Below, piece after piece: positions 3,249 to 42,317 of a stretch of 42,333 nt of DNA. This DNA comes from Nitrospirae bacterium MYbinv3. Lineage in GTDB: Bacteria; Nitrospirota; Thermodesulfovibrionia; Thermodesulfovibrionales; Magnetobacteriaceae. Position 1 is the stretch's first letter. Each line of letters starts with the position of its first letter. Made by a program: the position numbers and the translations under genes. The stretch is taken from assembly GCA_002753395.1 (NCBI GenBank), contig PEAB01000025.1, forward strand, positions 1-42,333, written 5' to 3'. The notes beneath the pieces are model-generated. The model was not told where the DNA came from. It searched no databases and was given only the letters and a program-made list of their open reading frames with translations.

Positions 3249-3653
3249 ATGCCTATAACATTCGACATAAGAGAGTGTGATACCAAGTTGCGTTCATACC
3301 AGTATTGGTATAGAAGGGGAGACTCTGTCTCCCCTCAGACCCCTCTGCAAGGGGACCAGTCCCCTTGACCCCATTACAATACAACATCTTACATTCTGAA
3401 ACATAATATACCTCTTTGAATGAAACTTAGTATGAGATGTTTTTAGATGGTAAGCGTGAAGGCTTACTTGAGGGTGTACTTGAAGGGGAGCGTAAAGGTT
3501 TGCTTGTTGGTATAGAAATGGCTCTTGAGGTCAAATATGGATATAATCAGGGATATTGAGACATCTGAGGAGCTTAATCAATTAATGCTTTTAATAAAGA
3601 GGTCTGATACGGTAGACGAATTAAGAGAGACTCTCGTTGATATGAATAAATAA
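3249..3653 (+). pseudogene. Rpn-like (PD-(D/E)XK transposase-nuclease tail) pseudogene, split by a repeat
   Basis: An ATG at 3249, preceded by AAGGAG, opens the frame MPITFDIRE. The frame runs into a 154-bp repeat at 3280-3433. Immediately after the repeat the sequence continues as MFLDGKREGLLEG and MALEVKYG, which joins the first part seamlessly when the repeat is removed. A second lesion, a frameshift near 3540-3550, moves the end (ETSEELNQLMLLIKRSD, TAA at 3651-3653) into another frame. The EGKREGLLEG-type helix followed by a short helical tail is typical of the C-termini of Rpn/PD-(D/E)XK family proteins. No catalytic domain is present. The family call rests on remembered similarity. Confidence 0.55.
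3280..3433. mobile_element. Small non-autonomous element interrupting the Rpn-like relic
   Basis: The left end ATACCAAGTTGCGTTCA and the reverse complement of the right end, ATACTAAGTTTCATTCA, match at 14 of 17 positions. The interior carries the GC palindromes GGGGAGACTCTGTCTCCCC and AAGGGGACCAGTCCCCTT. Positions 15120-15215 hold a closely similar left part. Removing these bases restores a continuous reading frame, which makes insertion the simplest explanation. The flanks (GAGTGTG and GAGATGT) are only a rough match as a target duplication. Confidence 0.6.
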
Positions 3654-10304: not shown

Positions 10305-13300
10305 TTATAATGTTGATAGGGTGTGGATATTTATTCTTGATGGGATGTTGTGTTCTTTGAAGTCCTCTGTCATTCGGGGGAGGATCTCTATCTGTGCAGC
10401 TGGATGGAAGTTGAGATGGAGGAGTATCTTGGCGAGTTTAGATAGGGCACCGATGCGTTGTTCGAGTGTATTGTAGAATTCTCGTGTGTTGTCTAGGAAG
10501 CCGAGGTCTATGATAGCGTCGGGCTGGGTGGGGTCTGAGGTAACCCTGCCGCGTATATATCTATTTCTCTCTGCGTAGGGGACAAGGGCTCCAAGCTGGT
10601 TATGAAACAAAACGCGTTGAGAGGCCACGAGGAAATTAAACTCCCATAGGTTGAGGCCGGCGGTATGGGGGTTATGGAGACAGTTGTTGCTATCCAGCCT
10701 TGGGTCAACAATAAAAATCGGGGCGTTTAACTGAAACATCATGTCCTTGGGATGCCAAAGATTGCGCTCTTTTACGTCGTTGAAGTGCTCCCTTAAGGCG
10801 GCATTAAGAACGGTATTTTTTTCGACCTTCTCCTCTACTCTGGCCAACGTCTCTCTATCTATGTAAGGGGCTATGCGGTTTTGCGTAAAGATGCCATACT
10901 GCGAAGACTGTCTGGCGTTCAGCTTTAGAAGGATGAGGAAATACCACTCCGAGAGGGTCTCGTCCTCTATACCCTGCTGCTCTTCAAGGAGGTTCTCTAT
11001 CTCTACCTGCCTGTATAGTGAAAGTGTGTAGAGTTCCTTAAAGACTTGGAGCCGCTGTGTTCCGTCAATATTTAACAGTGCTGCCATCTGGTCTTTGCCT
11101 ACAAAGTCTTTCTCCGTCTTTTCGTAGGAACCTATAAGAAGCGTTAAACTGTCAAACTCGGATTTTAATGAACCTTTTTTCATCTCCGAGGCATACATAA
11201 CCGGGCCCGATATGAGGTTTAGGGCGTCAAGCAGGGCGTCGTCGTTTGAATAAAAGGAGACGGTGTTTTCCTTTAAGACCGATAACCCGACCTCCATGCC
11301 ATTTTTAAATATATCGAGGGCGCCGGGTATCTGCACAATGGGGATAGCCGTGTTTTGTTTCTCCATCTCGGATATAACCAACACCGGGTGTGCAAAGGGG
11401 GTGCAGGTCTCTAGGATGATGGCCCCTGGCAGCCTGCGTTTGAGGTAGACTTCAAGGTTGGCAATATCAAGATGCTTTGCTACGATGATGCAGCCTGGGT
11501 GGATTTTTTCAAGCTCGTACTGCGGAGAGCCGCCATTTATGTTAAGCACGCTGACTTGCCCGCGGGCGCAGCCAAAGGTAAAGGTCTGAAGGTGTTTATC
11601 AGTAAGACCATGCAGGCCGCTGAAGTCACAGTGGAATCGCTGGTCCTTGAGTTCTTTGAATGACCCAGTTTTAGGCCGTATCTGCGTTATAAAGATGTCG
11701 TTGTTAAGGGATACGGCGTATTCAACATCAAGCTGAAGGCCCATAAAGATGGGAAGCTGTTTGAGCTTATCTATGATCTCAAAGAGTATCTTCAGTTGGA
11801 CGTCAGAGACCTTCTGCCTTATACGTCTATCTGACTCCGGGATCTCTTTCACCTCAAACCTCAGAGTCTCACTGTCCCATACAATGGCCTTGGTCTGAGG
11901 TGAGATTATCTTGTCTGTGATCTCGGCATGTAGATTGAGGGTGTATTTGTCAGCAGCAATATCTGAGCGTGTGCCGCCTTCCAAGCCGTAGGAGGCCGAT
12001 ACGACTATCCCGCCGCTTTCAAGGGTCATAATAACGCCCGATACCGCAGCATCCACAACGCCCTGAATTACGACACCCATGCCGATGTTCTCAATGGCGA
12101 ACTTCTCAGCCAGTGAGGGGTCTAACTCCATGATATCGTGGCGGTAGGAGATGGCCTTTGGCGACCAGAGTGAGGCCCATATACGTTTTACTGCTATGAG
12201 GAAGTCCTCAGGGGTCTTTATGTCCAAGACGGTCAGAAACTGTCCTGCAAAGGAATAGAGCCGCCCGTCTTCACCCTTTGCCGTTGACCTGGCACCGATA
12301 GTGACAAACGAATCGTAGGTGTTTATGTGTTCCTTGAACTTGATGAACTTGTCTATGAGTTCAATCTGCATGTGTTCTGGCAGCGTCCCGTTTATTATTA
12401 ACGAGTGGATTTTTTCTCCGGCCTCTACGATCCTCTTTTCGATATCGGGTTTGTCGTCAAACCTGATGGAGGCGATTATATCGGGTATTATGTTATTTAA
12501 GTGGTTGTGTTCTATATAGTGGTCATATGCGGAGGTCTTAAGTAGGAGGAAGACGGGTATCTTGCACTGACCGATTATCTCAAGGAGGTGGTAGCCCTTT
12601 TCGCCTATATCAAATGGGTTAAAGCCGAGTGTTGAGGATATGGCCGATATATAGGATGCCTGGGGTATGGAGTGGCTGCCGGGTTCGAGGTATATGGATT
12701 GATGCTCCATACGGAGTTTCTTAAGGGTGTACAGGATGTCGTGGATAGTGAGCTTGTAGTTGACGTCTGTGCTTGAGAGTTCATTGATGAGGATATTCAT
12801 AAAATTGCCGCTCTTTTGGTGAGCGCTGTATTTTATTACGTGGTTGCCGAGTAAGAGGAGGATCTCGCGTGCCGGATCGATTACCTCTATAGCGCCAAGT
12901 CTTAAGAGCGAAAGAATGAGTCTGATAGAGGCGTCTAGTTCAACGATGTCTATGTCGTCCCCTCTGGATTCCAGGAAGTCAACGATGGCCCGCAGGATGG
13001 CAGACTTGCTGGTATTGGAGTTCTTCAGCAGGTATACATTAAACGCCCTGAGATCGAGGCGGTTATCGCTCCTTTTACAGTTAAACGACAACATCAGCAG
13101 CGTTGCCGAGTAGATTGTAATCCAGTTATCGCCTGAGAGAAGGACGTCCTCGGTGATCCTTATAAACTCATCGGCGCTGTGCATGGTATTGATTTGATAG
13201 TCTTGGTCAAAGATCAGGGTAGCTGTGGAGATCACTTGACTTAGGAGCAGGGGGCCGCAGTCCTTAGCGGTCTTGAGGGTAAGAACGATAGCATCGGCGA

Positions 13301-15098
13301 TCTTTTCCGCCTCCATGAGGCCGTTGTTTAGGAGATAGTACAGGCTCTTAAATATCTCCCGCTTGTAAGACTCTGGCATTGAGGGGTTTAGTGACAAGAG
13401 GCTTAGTAGAAAGTCGGTGTTTTCAACGTCGTTTATATTCATTGCCTCAAGGAACTGGTTGCATGCCCTGAAGTCCTCATCGCGGTACTTTGCGATGAAG
13501 ATGCAGTTAAGCTGCAGGAGCTGCTCGAGGATGCCGGCGTGGTATTTTTCTATACCTTGCTGGTGGGTTATGATTGCCTTTATCTCCGACTTCATCCACT
13601 GTGAGAGGGTGTCGTAGCAGGCCCCTTTAAAGACGGTAAGCTCTTTGCCCTGTTCTATGGTGAAGTGTTCAAACATTATGGTGATGGCCGATACCACAAG
13701 GGGTTTGAACTCGTCGTCGACCATCTTGTAGAACCATCTAAAGAACTGTATGACGGTGCGTTTGTCTCTGACAAAGTATGAAAACTTTTTGAGGTTGTCT
13801 ATAAGCTCCGGGATGTTTTCTCTTTGGACGTGTTCCAATCCAACGGTTACGGTGTCGGATATGTAGTGAAACAGGATGTCGTTGTCGACCTCGCCAGCCT
13901 CGATGTCGCCGATGAACTTTGTGAGGTTTTTGACGACTGCGTTGGAGTTGTGCGTGAACTCCTCACTTTCTGGGATGGACGTAAAGTATGGGACGATGCC
14001 TTGCAGGATAGATAGGTCCTTCTTGAGTTTCTGGTGAAACTTGAAGTGTATGATATCACCGCGGAATATGTAGTTGACCTGCAGGAAACCGATGATACGT
14101 TTCATAGTGTCGTTGAGGCGGACTATTATATAGGAGGTTATGTTTGATAGCTCCTTTATATTAACGCACTTTGGGTTACACGATGTATCGGGGATGATGT
14201 CGTAGCCCTTGAGGCAGGCCAGGTATATGGAGTCACCGTGGGTGATTATCTTCCGTCCCTCGAGGAAGAAAGAGGACTTGTACACGGGGGTGGGGATGTC
14301 GGATTCCTTGCTCCACAGGCCGATGGTCTTGACTATGTCGCTAGCGCTTTTTGAGTACAGGCGGATGGACTCGGCATCCAGGAGTTTTATAAGCTCAGGG
14401 ATCGTCTTGAATCGTTCGGACATGTCGCTTGCCTTTAGCCGCTTGATGAATGAGGTAAAGGCGTCTAACTTTTCATCTGAGTAGATGTCCTTGTTGAGGT
14501 CGCAGTAGGGGTCATAGAGGGCGCTTAGGGTGATGAAGTGGGAGACCTCAACGATACTCTCCGTTATGCCCTGCAGCTCGGTGAGCAGGCTGCGTTGATA
14601 GTTCACGAACTGCTCGTTTTTGGGCGTCATGTCGTAGCTCTCAGCGTCGGGGTTGCAGCAGCCTGCGCTTATGTCCTTTTCAATTTTGAGGTATCCGGCT
14701 GGTCGTCCCTCGCTGTCTTTGATGCAGACGAGGATAAAGACGTTTTCGTTGTCGGACATCTTGTTGTTGAGCTTTATGTAGTAGCCATTGCGGCTAGCCA
14801 GGTACATGCGTTCGCTCTCGGTGATCTTACGTGGGGGATTAAAGGACGAACAGACGTCGGCCCCTTCAAGCATCTTTATATCGCCGTCCTTTTTAACGAA
14901 ATCAAAGGCGGCGTGCAGGCGGTTTCCCTCAAGAGGGATGTAGTACAGCACCCTGGCCATATCGAATATTCTTATAATGCCGATGCACAGGGTCCTTATC
15001 TGTTCGTTGAACCCTCTCTCCATGATGATGGCATTTTTTAGCTTGTTGATCTCAACCAGATAGGCGATCCTATCGTGGATAGGTCGTGTGTTTTTCAA
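10305..15098 (-). CDS. Giant PEP/pyruvate-binding (ATP-grasp) and phospho-His swivel domain protein
   Basis: The start is set at TTG 15098, 8 bases after a perfect AAGGAGG; the in-frame ATG at 15137 lies inside a dispersed repeat and has no ribosome site. The product is 1,597 residues. The N-terminal 130 residues may be GAF-like. About 150-900 is mostly helical with no recognised family. Residues about 930-1160 form a PPDK/PEP-synthase N-terminal ATP-grasp domain (ARSTAKGED with Arg937, ISYRHD, GVVIQGVVDAAVSGVIMT, TQIRPK). Residues about 1180-1280 form the swivelling domain, with a candidate phosphocarrier His1237 in TPFAHPVLV. The C-terminal 350 residues are unassigned, and there is no PEP-binding TIM barrel. 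This resembles dikinases such as rifampin phosphotransferase or glucan water dikinase in logic, but the acceptor is unknown. It is a monocistronic gene. Confidence 0.8.
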   Translation of the reverse strand: MKNTRPIHDRIAYLVEINKLKNAIIMERGFNEQIRTLCIGIIRIFDMARVLYYIPLEGNRLHAAFDFVKKDGDIKMLEGADVCSSFNPPRKITESERMYLASRNGYYIKLNNKMSDNENVFILVCIKDSEGRPAGYLKIEKDISAGCCNPDAESYDMTPKNEQFVNYQRSLLTELQGITESIVEVSHFITLSALYDPYCDLNKDIYSDEKLDAFTSFIKRLKASDMSERFKTIPELIKLLDAESIRLYSKSASDIVKTIGLWSKESDIPTPVYKSSFFLEGRKIITHGDSIYLACLKGYDIIPDTSCNPKCVNIKELSNITSYIIVRLNDTMKRIIGFLQVNYIFRGDIIHFKFHQKLKKDLSILQGIVPYFTSIPESEEFTHNSNAVVKNLTKFIGDIEAGEVDNDILFHYISDTVTVGLEHVQRENIPELIDNLKKFSYFVRDKRTVIQFFRWFYKMVDDEFKPLVVSAITIMFEHFTIEQGKELTVFKGACYDTLSQWMKSEIKAIITHQQGIEKYHAGILEQLLQLNCIFIAKYRDEDFRACNQFLEAMNINDVENTDFLLSLLSLNPSMPESYKREIFKSLYYLLNNGLMEAEKIADAIVLTLKTAKDCGPLLLSQVISTATLIFDQDYQINTMHSADEFIRITEDVLLSGDNWITIYSATLLMLSFNCKRSDNRLDLRAFNVYLLKNSNTSKSAILRAIVDFLESRGDDIDIVELDASIRLILSLLRLGAIEVIDPAREILLLLGNHVIKYSAHQKSGNFMNILINELSSTDVNYKLTIHDILYTLKKLRMEHQSIYLEPGSHSIPQASYISAISSTLGFNPFDIGEKGYHLLEIIGQCKIPVFLLLKTSAYDHYIEHNHLNNIIPDIIASIRFDDKPDIEKRIVEAGEKIHSLIINGTLPEHMQIELIDKFIKFKEHINTYDSFVTIGARSTAKGEDGRLYSFAGQFLTVLDIKTPEDFLIAVKRIWASLWSPKAISYRHDIMELDPSLAEKFAIENIGMGVVIQGVVDAAVSGVIMTLESGGIVVSASYGLEGGTRSDIAADKYTLNLHAEITDKIISPQTKAIVWDSETLRFEVKEIPESDRRIRQKVSDVQLKILFEIIDKLKQLPIFMGLQLDVEYAVSLNNDIFITQIRPKTGSFKELKDQRFHCDFSGLHGLTDKHLQTFTFGCARGQVSVLNINGGSPQYELEKIHPGCIIVAKHLDIANLEVYLKRRLPGAIILETCTPFAHPVLVISEMEKQNTAIPIVQIPGALDIFKNGMEVGLSVLKENTVSFYSNDDALLDALNLISGPVMYASEMKKGSLKSEFDSLTLLIGSYEKTEKDFVGKDQMAALLNIDGTQRLQVFKELYTLSLYRQVEIENLLEEQQGIEDETLSEWYFLILLKLNARQSSQYGIFTQNRIAPYIDRETLARVEEKVEKNTVLNAALREHFNDVKERNLWHPKDMMFQLNAPIFIVDPRLDSNNCLHNPHTAGLNLWEFNFLVASQRVLFHNQLGALVPYAERNRYIRGRVTSDPTQPDAIIDLGFLDNTREFYNTLEQRIGALSKLAKILLHLNFHPAAQIEILPRMTEDFKEHNIPSRINIHTLSTL

Positions 15099-15119: not shown

Positions 15120-15215
15120 ATACCAACTTGCGTTCATACCAGTAGGGTATAGAAGGGGAGACTCTGTCTCCCCTCAGACCCCTCTGCAAGGGGACCAGTC
15201 CCCTTAACCCCATTT
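15120..15215. repeat. Second copy of the 3280-type element (left part)
   Basis: This stretch is nearly identical to 3280-3375, including TTGCGTTCATACCAG, the GGGGAGACTCTGTCTCCCC palindrome and AAGGGGACCAGTCCCCTT. The far terminal repeat seen at 3417-3433 is not recognisable here. It lies directly upstream of the giant gene and supplies the misleading ATG at 15137. The rest of the gap to 15357 shows nothing else clear. Confidence 0.65.
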
Positions 15216-19869: not shown

Positions 19870-19963
19870 GGTGCATATAAAACTCATGGGGATAAGCATG
19901 TATAAAGGGGTCAAGGGGACTGGTCCCCTTGTGGGTAGGTCTAGGGAGGGCAAAGCCCTCCCT
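19870..19963. repeat. Mosaic palindromic repeat upstream of the STAS operon
   Basis: It comprises a GGTGCATATAAAACTCATGGGG segment variant (compare 42227), then GGGGTCAAGGGGACTGG/CCCCTTG, then the short hairpin GGAGGGCAAAGCCCTCC. No gene is supported in 19797-20124; the 69-residue ORF across it is repeat-derived. Confidence 0.6.
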
Positions 19964-21414: not shown

Positions 21415-21555
21415 TAATGCTGTTGACTTAAGGCTGAGGAAGAAGAAGGGGGAGCGTCTCTCCCCCTCAGCCCCCTTCGCAAGGGGACTCGTCCCCTTGA
21501 CCCCTTTATATCGCATGTTTATACACAGTGTCTCAATCGTCTGCTGAACTATTAC
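21415..21555. repeat. Mosaic repeat with a terminal GAACTATTAC end
   Basis: The modules in order are AATGCTGTTGACTTAAGG, the hairpin GGGGGAG/CTCCCCC, AAGGGGACTCGTCCCCTT, then TATATCGCATGTTTATACAC and CTGAACTATTAC. The right end equals that of the element at 35066-35225; the left terminal repeat is missing. It begins 10 bases after the FadL-type stop codon, so the hairpins may serve as a terminator. Confidence 0.6.
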
Positions 21556-26048: not shown

Positions 26049-26248
26049 GTAATAGTTCACCCATATGTGTATTAAGAAGGGAAGGCTTTGCCTCTGCCGC
26101 AGGGGTTTGCAACCCCCTCCCTTTTTTTATCTTCACAACCTTAAGTCAACAGCATTAGGGGTGAGGCACCCCTGCCACAAAGAAGTCCCCTTAACCCCAT
26201 TATATGTATGTTTATACACAATGTTTCAATTGTATACTGAACTATTAA
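26049..26248. mobile_element. GTAATAGTTCA-family MITE, about 200 bp
   Basis: The left end GTAATAGTTCA (26049-26059) and right end TGAACTATTA (26238-26247) are inverted copies of the ends of the 160-bp element at 35066. The interior has the GGGGTTTGCAACCCCC hairpin and an additional CCTTAAGTCAACAGCATTAGG module. The last base is A where the consensus has C. No target duplication is apparent, so this is an older or rearranged copy. Confidence 0.65.
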
Positions 26249-29358: not shown

Positions 29359-29525
29359 GGGGAGTTTTGCTCCCCCTAAGACCTAATGCTGTTGACTTAA
29401 GGTTGTGAAGATGAAAAAAAGGAGGGCTTTGCCCTCCCTTAGACCCATCCACAAGGGGACCAGTCCCCTTGACCCCATTAAATCACATGTTTATACACAA
29501 TGTTTCAATAGTATACTGAACTATT
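29359..29525. repeat. Mosaic repeat with the GAACTATTAC right end
   Basis: It contains hairpin GGGGGAGTTTTGCTCCCCC, module AATGCTGTTGACTTAAGG, hairpin GGAGGGCTTTGCCCTCC, AAGGGGACCAGTCCCCTT, then CATGTTTATACACAATG and CTGAACTATTAC. It begins just after the radical SAM stop codon and fills nearly all of the gap to the next gene. The left terminal repeat is eroded. Confidence 0.65.
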
Positions 29526-29535
29526 ACAATTTTTA

Positions 29536-34596: not shown

Positions 34597-35088
34597 ATGA
34601 GTGTTCAAAAAACAATACATAACGATATTGTTACAGAAAAATCACTTTATGACACTGATTTTTATCAATGGACAATCTACAATGCTGCCCTGTTAAGACA
34701 AGGTAGGTTTAGTGAATTAGACGTGGAGAACATTGCAGAAGAAATAGAGACTATGGGTAGAAGTGAAAAAAGAGAATTAATAAACCGATTGTCGGTATTA
34801 ATAATGCATCTACTCAAATTGCAATATCAACCTCAACAACACTCTAAGAGCTGGATTACAACTATTGGAAGTCAAAGAACTGACATAGAGTTTTTATTAG
34901 AGGATAGCCCTAGTTTAGAACATGAAATAGAACTAATCATTGAAAAGGCCTATGAAAGAGCAAAAGTTAGATTTCAAAAGGACACAGGTATCAGCCAAGA
35001 AAGACTACCAGACTCCTGCCCTTATACATTTGAGCAGTTGATTGATGATAACTTTTGGCCTAAAGGTAATAGTTCAGTATACGATTGA
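34597..35088 (+). CDS. DUF29-family protein with a transposon-derived C-terminus
   Basis: The chosen start, ATG 34597, is uncertain; ATG 34558 and TTG 34540 are in frame upstream and none has a strong ribosome site. The body matches DUF29 (LYDTDFYQWTIYNAALLRQG, DVENIAEEIETMGRSEKREL, LSVLIMHLLKLQYQPQ, SWITTI). It is a small all-helical family of unknown function that is common in cyanobacteria and multiplies in some genomes. The last codons (GNSSVYD and TGA) come from the left end of the 160-bp element at 35066. Without that insertion the frame would read FWPKEI and stop (TAA), so the change is limited to the tail and the protein may remain functional. Confidence 0.82.
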   Translation: MSVQKTIHNDIVTEKSLYDTDFYQWTIYNAALLRQGRFSELDVENIAEEIETMGRSEKRELINRLSVLIMHLLKLQYQPQQHSKSWITTIGSQRTDIEFLLEDSPSLEHEIELIIEKAYERAKVRFQKDTGISQERLPDSCPYTFEQLIDDNFWPKGNSSVYD

Positions 35089-35225
35089 AACATCGTGTAT
35101 AAATATGCGATATAATGGGGTCAAGGGGTCTGGTCACCTTGTGGGTGGGGCTGAGGGAGGGGGTTGCGAACCCCTGGGGCAGAGGCAACGACCTCCCTTC
35201 TTAATACAAAGGGGTGAACTATTAC
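35066..35225. mobile_element. 160-bp MITE with perfect 11-bp ends and 8-bp target duplication
   Basis: The ends GTAATAGTTCA (35066-35076) and TGAACTATTAC (35215-35225) are a perfect inverted pair. GCCTAAAG flanks both sides exactly (35058-35065 and 35226-35233). The interior includes GGGGTCAAGGGGTCTGG and the GGGGGTTGCGAACCCC hairpin that recur through the window. The element has no coding capacity. IS66-family elements are known for ends beginning GTAA and 8-bp duplications, so an IS66-type transposase is a reasonable guess for the helper. Confidence 0.9.
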
Positions 35226-35258
35226 GCCTAAAGAAATCTAAATATCAAGGAGTAAACT

Positions 35259-35330
35259 ATGTCAAAAGTAGATTGGGATATTCGCCGTGAGGGGCGAGCA
35301 TGGAAAGGAAGTGAAGCAGAAGAACGTTGA
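35259..35330 (+). CDS. 23-residue ORF upstream of the small conserved protein
   Basis: A good ribosome site (AAGGAG, six bases before the ATG) opens MSKVDWDIRREGRAWKGSEA, ending at TGA 35328-35330. The next ORF begins with the adjacent base and is in the same frame. It may be a genuine short peptide, a leader, or the beginning of one gene split by a TGA. No family is recognised. Confidence 0.4.
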   Translation: MSKVDWDIRREGRAWKGSEAEER

Positions 35331-35495
35331 ATGCTAACACCTGAAAAGTTTGAGATGAATGACGGAAAACTGTTTTTTGAAGAAGAGGAAAGGATAAACT
35401 TACTTGGATTGTTATTAGAAAACGTTGGTATCGATAAAGCTATTACTCTTGGTAATCCTGAAACGTGGATAAGTGCCATTGAGAAACTCAAATGA
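35331..35495 (+). CDS. Small conserved hypothetical protein (54 residues)
   Basis: MLTPEKFEMNDGKLFF and LGLLLENVGIDKAITLGNP resemble a short family of unknown function that I recall from cyanobacteria and Nitrospirota. The start directly abuts the stop codon of the 23-residue ORF (TGA ATG), implying re-initiation. In the pre-insertion arrangement it would have followed the DUF29 gene closely, with the small ORF 17 bases after the ancestral DUF29 stop. No function can be given. Confidence 0.55.
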   Translation: MLTPEKFEMNDGKLFFEEEERINLLGLLLENVGIDKAITLGNPETWISAIEKLK

Positions 35496-37554: not shown

Positions 37555-37695
37555 CATAAATAATTAATGGGTGCTTTGGGGGCGCTCCGACCCCCTCAGA
37601 CCCCCCGCAAGGGGACTCGTCCCTTTGACCCCGTAAATGTCGGGCGTGATTGTTTTATATGTTACAAATGTTTCAATCGTATACTGAGCTATTAC
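37555..37695. repeat. Mosaic palindromic repeat with GAGCTATTAC end
   Basis: It comprises GTGCATAAATAATTAATGGG, GC hairpins (GGGGGCGCTCCGACCCCC), AAGGGGACTCGTCCCTTTG, then CAAATGTTTCAATCGTATAC and TGAGCTATTAC. This is the same right end as the 160-bp family with one change. It fills the gap between the tRNA and the Crp-type gene. Confidence 0.55.
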
Positions 37696-42226: not shown

Positions 42227-42317
42227 AAGAATTTCATGGGGGACAATAAAAATTAATGGGGTCAAGGGGACTGGTCCCCTTGTGGGTGGGTCTGAGGGAG
42301 GGCAAAGCCCTCCATTC
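42227..42317. repeat. Mosaic palindromic repeat, right-edge copy
   Basis: It contains GGTGCATAAGAATTTCATGGGG, then AATGGGGTCAAGGGGACTGG/CCCCTTG, then the hairpin GGAGGGCAAAGCCCTCC. It has the same order of modules as 19870-19963. The window ends just beyond. Confidence 0.6.

Follow-up and report, generated by a model that had tools for sequence, protein, structure and literature searches.

A 160-bp MITE at the end of a DUF29 gene shares its ends with a resident IS66-family element and its interior with a genus-wide palindromic repeat

The window analyzed here, a stretch of 42,333 nucleotides from a magnetotactic bacterium, probably a Magnetobacterium (phylum Nitrospirota), carries a short GC-rich palindromic sequence at the 3' end of a DUF29 gene. 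The locus raises the question of whether this sequence is a mobile element or a background repeat and, if it is mobile, which transposase moved it. In the original prediction it was described as a 160-bp MITE with perfect inverted ends and an exact 8-bp target duplication, and this description is right to the base. The features of the locus are as follows.

34597-35088, plus strand: DUF29 gene (PF01724, E 2.5e-50), whose final GNSSVYD and TGA come from the MITE junction
35058-35065, unstranded: target-site duplication GCCTAAAG, left copy, from the sequence
35066-35225, plus strand: MITE with type-A ends, 160 bp
35066-35076, plus strand: left TIR GTAATAGTTCA, found unchanged at either end of an IS66-family element, C50:15571-17009
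35090-35115, plus strand: left subterminal block ACATCGTGTATAAATATGCGATATAA, resembling the left subterminal sequence of the IS66 element
35117-35141, plus strand: palindromic core GGGGTCAAGGGGTCTGGTCACCTTG, consensus GGGGTCAAGGGGACTGGTCCCCTTG, a genus-wide repeat
35160-35174, plus strand: second GC hairpin GGGGTTGCGAACCCC, within the stretch missing from short (~136-bp) copies
35215-35225, minus strand: right TIR TGAACTATTAC, inward reading GTAATAGTTCACC, likewise both IS66 ends
35226-35233, unstranded: target-site duplication GCCTAAAG, right copy, from the sequence
35259-35495, plus strand: small downstream frame with an in-frame TGA at 35328-35330, 23 + 54 aa

The perfect 11-bp inverted ends were read directly from the sequence. 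Only short mechanical frames cross the 160 bp, and a transposase gene is absent; in single-strand folding the sequence outranks 199 of 200 shuffled versions (z -2.46), and no Rfam match was found over positions 34900-35400. When the element and one duplication are taken out, the DUF29 frame ends in ...DDNFWPKEI-TAA; with the element in place, the ending is ...FWPKGNSSVYD-TGA. The insertion thus lies two codons ahead of the ancestral stop; both endings had been predicted and were confirmed. The change is trivial, as the tail goes from KEI to KGNSSVYD and the domain, whose match stops at residue 154 of 163, is intact. Among the listed tails of relatives (n = 72, a few of them non-DUF29), mostly 0-8 residues, and commonly one, follow the FWP-like motif; the nearest DUF29 records belong to Magnetobacterium casense and Magnetomicrobium. 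Judging from where the domain match ends, the protein very probably still works after the insertion. The claim that the element "rewrites" the end of the gene is worded too strongly: EI is indeed replaced by GNSSVYD, but DUF29 tails vary anyway. Reading inward from either end of the MITE, one of the three frames meets TAA-TAG immediately, and a second frame at the left end, the one used in DUF29, reaches TGA after six codons, so that insertions at the 3' ends of genes can add only a few residues. With a stop supplied by the element a few codons in, the DUF29 protein is nearly unchanged, and for the gene itself the insertion is of little consequence.

The insertion had also been thought to split an apparent operon. 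The spacing of 17 bases from the ancestral TAA to the next ATG (35259) is correct, but the operon is doubtful, since its downstream member is an ORF of 23 codons whose frame stays open beyond its TGA, and no homologue was found in the loci examined; the nearest relative showed a 55-bp DNA match only. The in-frame TGA sits between MSKVDWDIRREGRAWKGSEAEER and MLTPEKFEMNDG..., which may indicate a broken gene or two ORFs.

To place the element in its family, the host genome (G000; 3.71 Mb in 175 contigs, an assembly fragmentary at repeats) was searched with the 160-bp query, which gave 48 matches, the top other copy being 91% identical. The exact 11-mer GTAATAGTTCA occurs 112 times in this genome, compared with a single occurrence of the reversed control; a count of the ends had been suggested in the original prediction, and it points to many copies. 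Flanking stretches were fetched and ends were paired, either strictly (at most one mismatch in each end, 28 pairs) or more loosely (34 pairs); the end sites were taken from at most 100 listed and sampled by similarity, which makes copy numbers per type approximate. Exact 8-bp duplications flank 11 of the 28 strict pairs and a 7-bp duplication flanks one, with none of 2-6 or 9-12 bp. Under looser pairing, 11 of 34 pairs have perfect 8-bp duplications and six more have one with a single mismatch (17/34), whereas, with all four bases taken as equally frequent, an exact 8-bp match is calculated to arise at random with probability 1.5e-5 per pair. One apparent element at C94:144 and C94:9858, suggested by a shared flank, was rejected, its orientation being wrong for two ends. 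The reconstructed target sites are mostly intergenic or, like that of the DUF29 copy, close to one extremity of a reading frame. Element lengths fall into two main classes of ~136 and ~160 bp, the short copies matching query positions 1-96 and 119-160. The MITE at 35066-35225 differs by 6.6% from the family consensus, and this distance, together with the 91% identity of the best other copy, indicates that the insertion at the DUF29 site is not recent.

Empty sites were sought in three genomes of the same genus (G001, the nearest relative, G002 and G003). None was found for the DUF29 copy, because G001 has no DUF29 gene at that place; its gspE (81% identical) has different upstream DNA. The check succeeded for a sister copy, C41:27478-27613, inserted two codons before the stop of ubiA (UbiA family, PF01040). 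Removal of this element and one duplication gives a ubiA ending in ...VFVLLEKFL-stop. In all three same-genus genomes the orthologue is uninterrupted, its last residues being ...EKSL-stop, and the exact end sequence is missing from the several hundred bases around it. This empty site is direct evidence that a family member inserted in the host lineage and, with the duplications in many copies, establishes the past mobility of the family. The element is short and non-coding, has TIRs and a duplication of constant length, and is multi-copy, and relatives keep the empty site of a sister copy; it thus qualifies as a bacterial MITE. Just past the ubiA stop of G003, a core-like repeat ...ATTAAGCATTATGGG was observed (C29, L336), at the same gene end as the MITE insertion of G000.

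Which transposase, then, recognized these ends? Ends starting with GTAA and 8-bp duplications, named as IS66 traits in the original prediction, are documented in the literature: IS66 elements of Frankia produce 8-bp duplications on transposition and have repeats starting with GTAAGCG (PMC11946415), and ISPsko1, of the IS66 family, likewise begins with GTAAGCG (PMC12888890). IS66 transposases were detected in G000 on contigs C118, C50 and C173, and the search for a same-genome element with matching ends led to C50:15571-17009, a 1439-bp IS66-family element with GTAATAGTTCACC at both ends (inward), identical to the 11 bp of the MITE. The start on one side is identical over 13 bp in the two elements, and the right ends are unrelated past 13 bp. 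In the left subterminal region, CATTGTGTATAAACATGCGATATA of the MITE aligns with CAATGTGTTAAATCTATGCGATATA of the insertion sequence (family consensus against IS, local score 30), a resemblance equaled by 4 of 2000 shuffles. The C50 element is large enough for one transposase frame only, and its N terminus matches DUF6444. This transposase matches PF03050 and, in two frame pieces, NF033517 (E 4.6e-25, 207-356; E 3.6e-27, 45-207), each piece alone falling under the whole-protein cut-off of the latter. Additional partial copies are mostly 96-98% identical, some of them at contig edges. No intact transposase was seen among the IS copies with GTAATAGTTCA ends in G000, all being damaged or cut off: two frameshifts were read in C50, a premature stop in C104, an extra base in C36 and an insertion in C106. 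A clean 8-bp duplication around the C50 element was not found.

The other two contigs were rejected as sources of the parent. The 11-mer of the window is absent from the 3.9-kb stretch of C118, even with one mismatch allowed, and C173 holds IS66 remnants, the 6 kb examined there lacking an end of this kind. The C118 locus (~12300-14550, L162) is a separate and larger IS66 element; its transposase of 518 aa is intact and is preceded by a tnpB-like frame. By eye, its end near the transposase looks like GTAAGCGTCT.

Compared at the sequence level, MITE and insertion sequence make an IS66-type parent well supported. We consider it very likely that the MITE is a non-autonomous element whose ends derive from the same-genome IS66-family insertion sequence and which was presumably moved in trans. 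The IS66 transposase would have recognized the GTAATAGTTCA ends, perhaps aided by the left subterminal block as is probable, and would have moved the 160-bp unit into a new site with the staggered cut of 8 bp that characterizes IS66. In one of these insertions the unit would have hit DUF29 two codons before its stop, the element providing a new one. Since all transposase copies seen with these ends are broken or cut off, this mobilization is placed in the past, as probable; the earlier suggestion that an IS66 transposase may mobilize the element holds in that sense and not for the present day.

A related possibility is that the ends are of IS66 type but the transposase came from elsewhere, such as another member of the genus or an element since lost, rather than from the C50 lineage. 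The missing intact copy in the assembly and the differing right subterminal sequences agree with such a source, as does the sister genus (G008), where 58 end motifs occur yet a PF03050 search found no IS66 transposase. Against it stand the presence of MITE and IS in the same genome, the 13-bp identical start on one side and the left subterminal block common to both; moreover, the C50-type element is multi-copy in G000, and intact copies may hide at contig breaks. We regard a foreign transposase as unlikely, though it keeps an appreciable share of the probability.

The interior of the MITE also lies beside other ends elsewhere. A search with GGGGTCAAGGGGACTGGTCCCCTTG, two positions being left free, gave 205 core copies in G000 and 55, 167 and 113 in the three same-genus genomes, with at most one in each of the other family and order-sample genomes and no control hits. 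Eight copies lie in the window, where none is expected; the seven others were observed at 3348-3372, 15187-15211, 19907-19931, 21480-21504, 29452-29476, 37608-37632 and 42258-42282, several of them with ends other than GTAATAGTTCA. Composite and related elements in the window are listed below.

21480-21555, minus strand: type-A left end with core, right part different
26049-26248, minus strand: type-A element of 200 bp, a foreign repeat segment lying in its interior, target duplication absent
29452-29527, minus strand: type-A left end with core, right part a different repeat
37608-37695, minus strand: core and its CACGCCCGACATTTAC left block, to which a type-A left end (GTAATAGCTCA) is joined

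Such a distribution could mean that the core is the true repeat, REP/BIME-like and spread by, for example, a RAYT transposase or recombination, with GTAATAGTTCA merely one of its adjoining sequences. Exact cores far outnumber the end motif GTAATAGTTCASY in the same-genus relatives (10-13 copies), several other left blocks exist, and only 13 of 94 listed G000 cores (~14%) have GTAATAGTTCA ends, these 94 coming from the first contigs in listing order and the core loci having been picked partly for lacking type-A ends. In two-ended copies, however, the duplication abuts GTAATAGTTCA exactly and not the core, so the 160-bp unit moved as one piece, and a core-only reading is refuted for the unit in the window. 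In G008, furthermore, these ends are found around something other than the core: the copies read among the 58 GTAATAGTTCASY motifs (e.g., L326 1501-1642) flank another palindrome, TCATTGCGAG...CTCGCAATGA, and one copy has a perfect 8-bp duplication, most others having none despite intact ends. We consider the core as the mobile unit improbable. The claim of mobility for the GC palindromes narrows correspondingly, holding for those with GTAATAGTTCA ends and not for palindromes at large. Coincidence, with inverted ends and flanking repeats arising by chance, has nothing in its favor beyond the shortness of the ends and is already refuted by the 112 ends against one control, the 11 perfect duplications in 34 pairs and the sister copy's empty site in three relatives.

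With an element bounded by IS66-type ends as the preferred reading, the remaining question is how the palindrome came to lie inside it. Other left blocks join the core at one point, with ...AAT, ...TAT or ...TAC before GGGGTCAAG; they include GGGTGCATAAGAA..., ...CACGCCTGACATTTAC, ...TTAGGATTGAGCATTAT and the TTTCGATTGGATTAAATACAA, TTTCAGAATGTAAGATG and ATTATGTAGGATATTTTTAGACTTTC blocks, two of the alternatives being present also in same-genus relatives. Two head-to-head chimeras were identified, GTAATAGTTCA-palindrome-GGGTGCATAAGAA at C123:48174-~48300 (L194), whose flanks agree at 6 of 8 bases, and a CACGCCTGAC block with GGGTGCATAAGAA on C24 (L281 ~3287-3317); in both, two different left ends are joined through the perfect palindrome GGGGTCAAGGGGACTGGTCCCCTTGACCCC. 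The GGGTGCATAAGAA ends also define a second MITE-like family in G000 (L270-L281 and others) with duplications of 8 or 9 bp, exact in four cases each among 21 pairs. On C61 (L166, 1383-1503), a nested insertion was observed, in which a GGGTGCATAAGGA element lies inside a GTAATAGTTCA end, also given as a GTAATAGTT end, with TAATAGTT duplicated.

The same core is thus combined with many different ends, and a given end can enclose more than one kind of core: ends and cores mix. The interior of the MITE is a genus-wide GC-palindromic repeat rather than a deleted transposase gene, and it would have been captured by recombination or template switching. The mixing as a whole may reflect the same processes inside the palindrome or, alternatively, independent captures. 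We tentatively propose, at somewhat less than even confidence, that the core is an exchange point, where switching or recombination in GGGGTCAAGGGGACTGGTCCCCTTGACCCC swaps half-elements and lets the repeat gain ends for different transposases (GTAATAGTTCA, 8-bp duplications; GGGTGCATAAGAA, 8-9-bp duplications). If exchange is real, high-copy palindromes would keep their mobility by switching from one vehicle to another, repeats would often pass between the REP-like and the MITE category, and the interior of a short repeat could not assign it to one parent transposon. What the locus offers in any case is a REP-like palindrome tied to a named transposase family by base-level evidence, namely ends, duplications and an empty site, and it suggests a route of persistence in which palindromes join the ends of different insertion sequences.

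In the open literature searched, no IS66-derived MITE was found, nor anything equivalent on Magnetobacterium repeats and mosaic MITEs. The closest systems are IS-derived MITEs such as MITECca01 of Cardinium, from an IS982-family element (PMC9769881), and MITEPsy1 of Pseudomonas syringae, with target duplications (PMC3189936). Like them, the present element is short, non-coding and multi-copy, shares its TIRs with a resident insertion sequence and has its copies mostly at gene boundaries or in intergenic DNA; unlike them, it has an IS66-family parent and 8-bp duplications, and its interior is a genus-wide palindrome, not an IS remnant. With the IS66 family (NF033517, DDE_Tnp_IS66) it has in common the repeats starting with GTAA, the 8-bp duplications and a resident IS66 element with the same ends, but it codes for no transposase and its TIRs measure 11-13 bp, less than the 20-30 bp, beginning with GTAAGCG, that are given for IS66 (PMC11946415). 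REP and BIME sequences (PMC2817692, PMC3733652) are likewise GC-rich, high-copy palindromes in mosaic combinations, whereas a subset of the repeats described here is bounded by transposon ends and target duplications. In QMITE2 of Coxiella (PMC10969869), also a MITE family with some REP-like copies, these arise via truncation, whereas here the same core is found on several different left ends.
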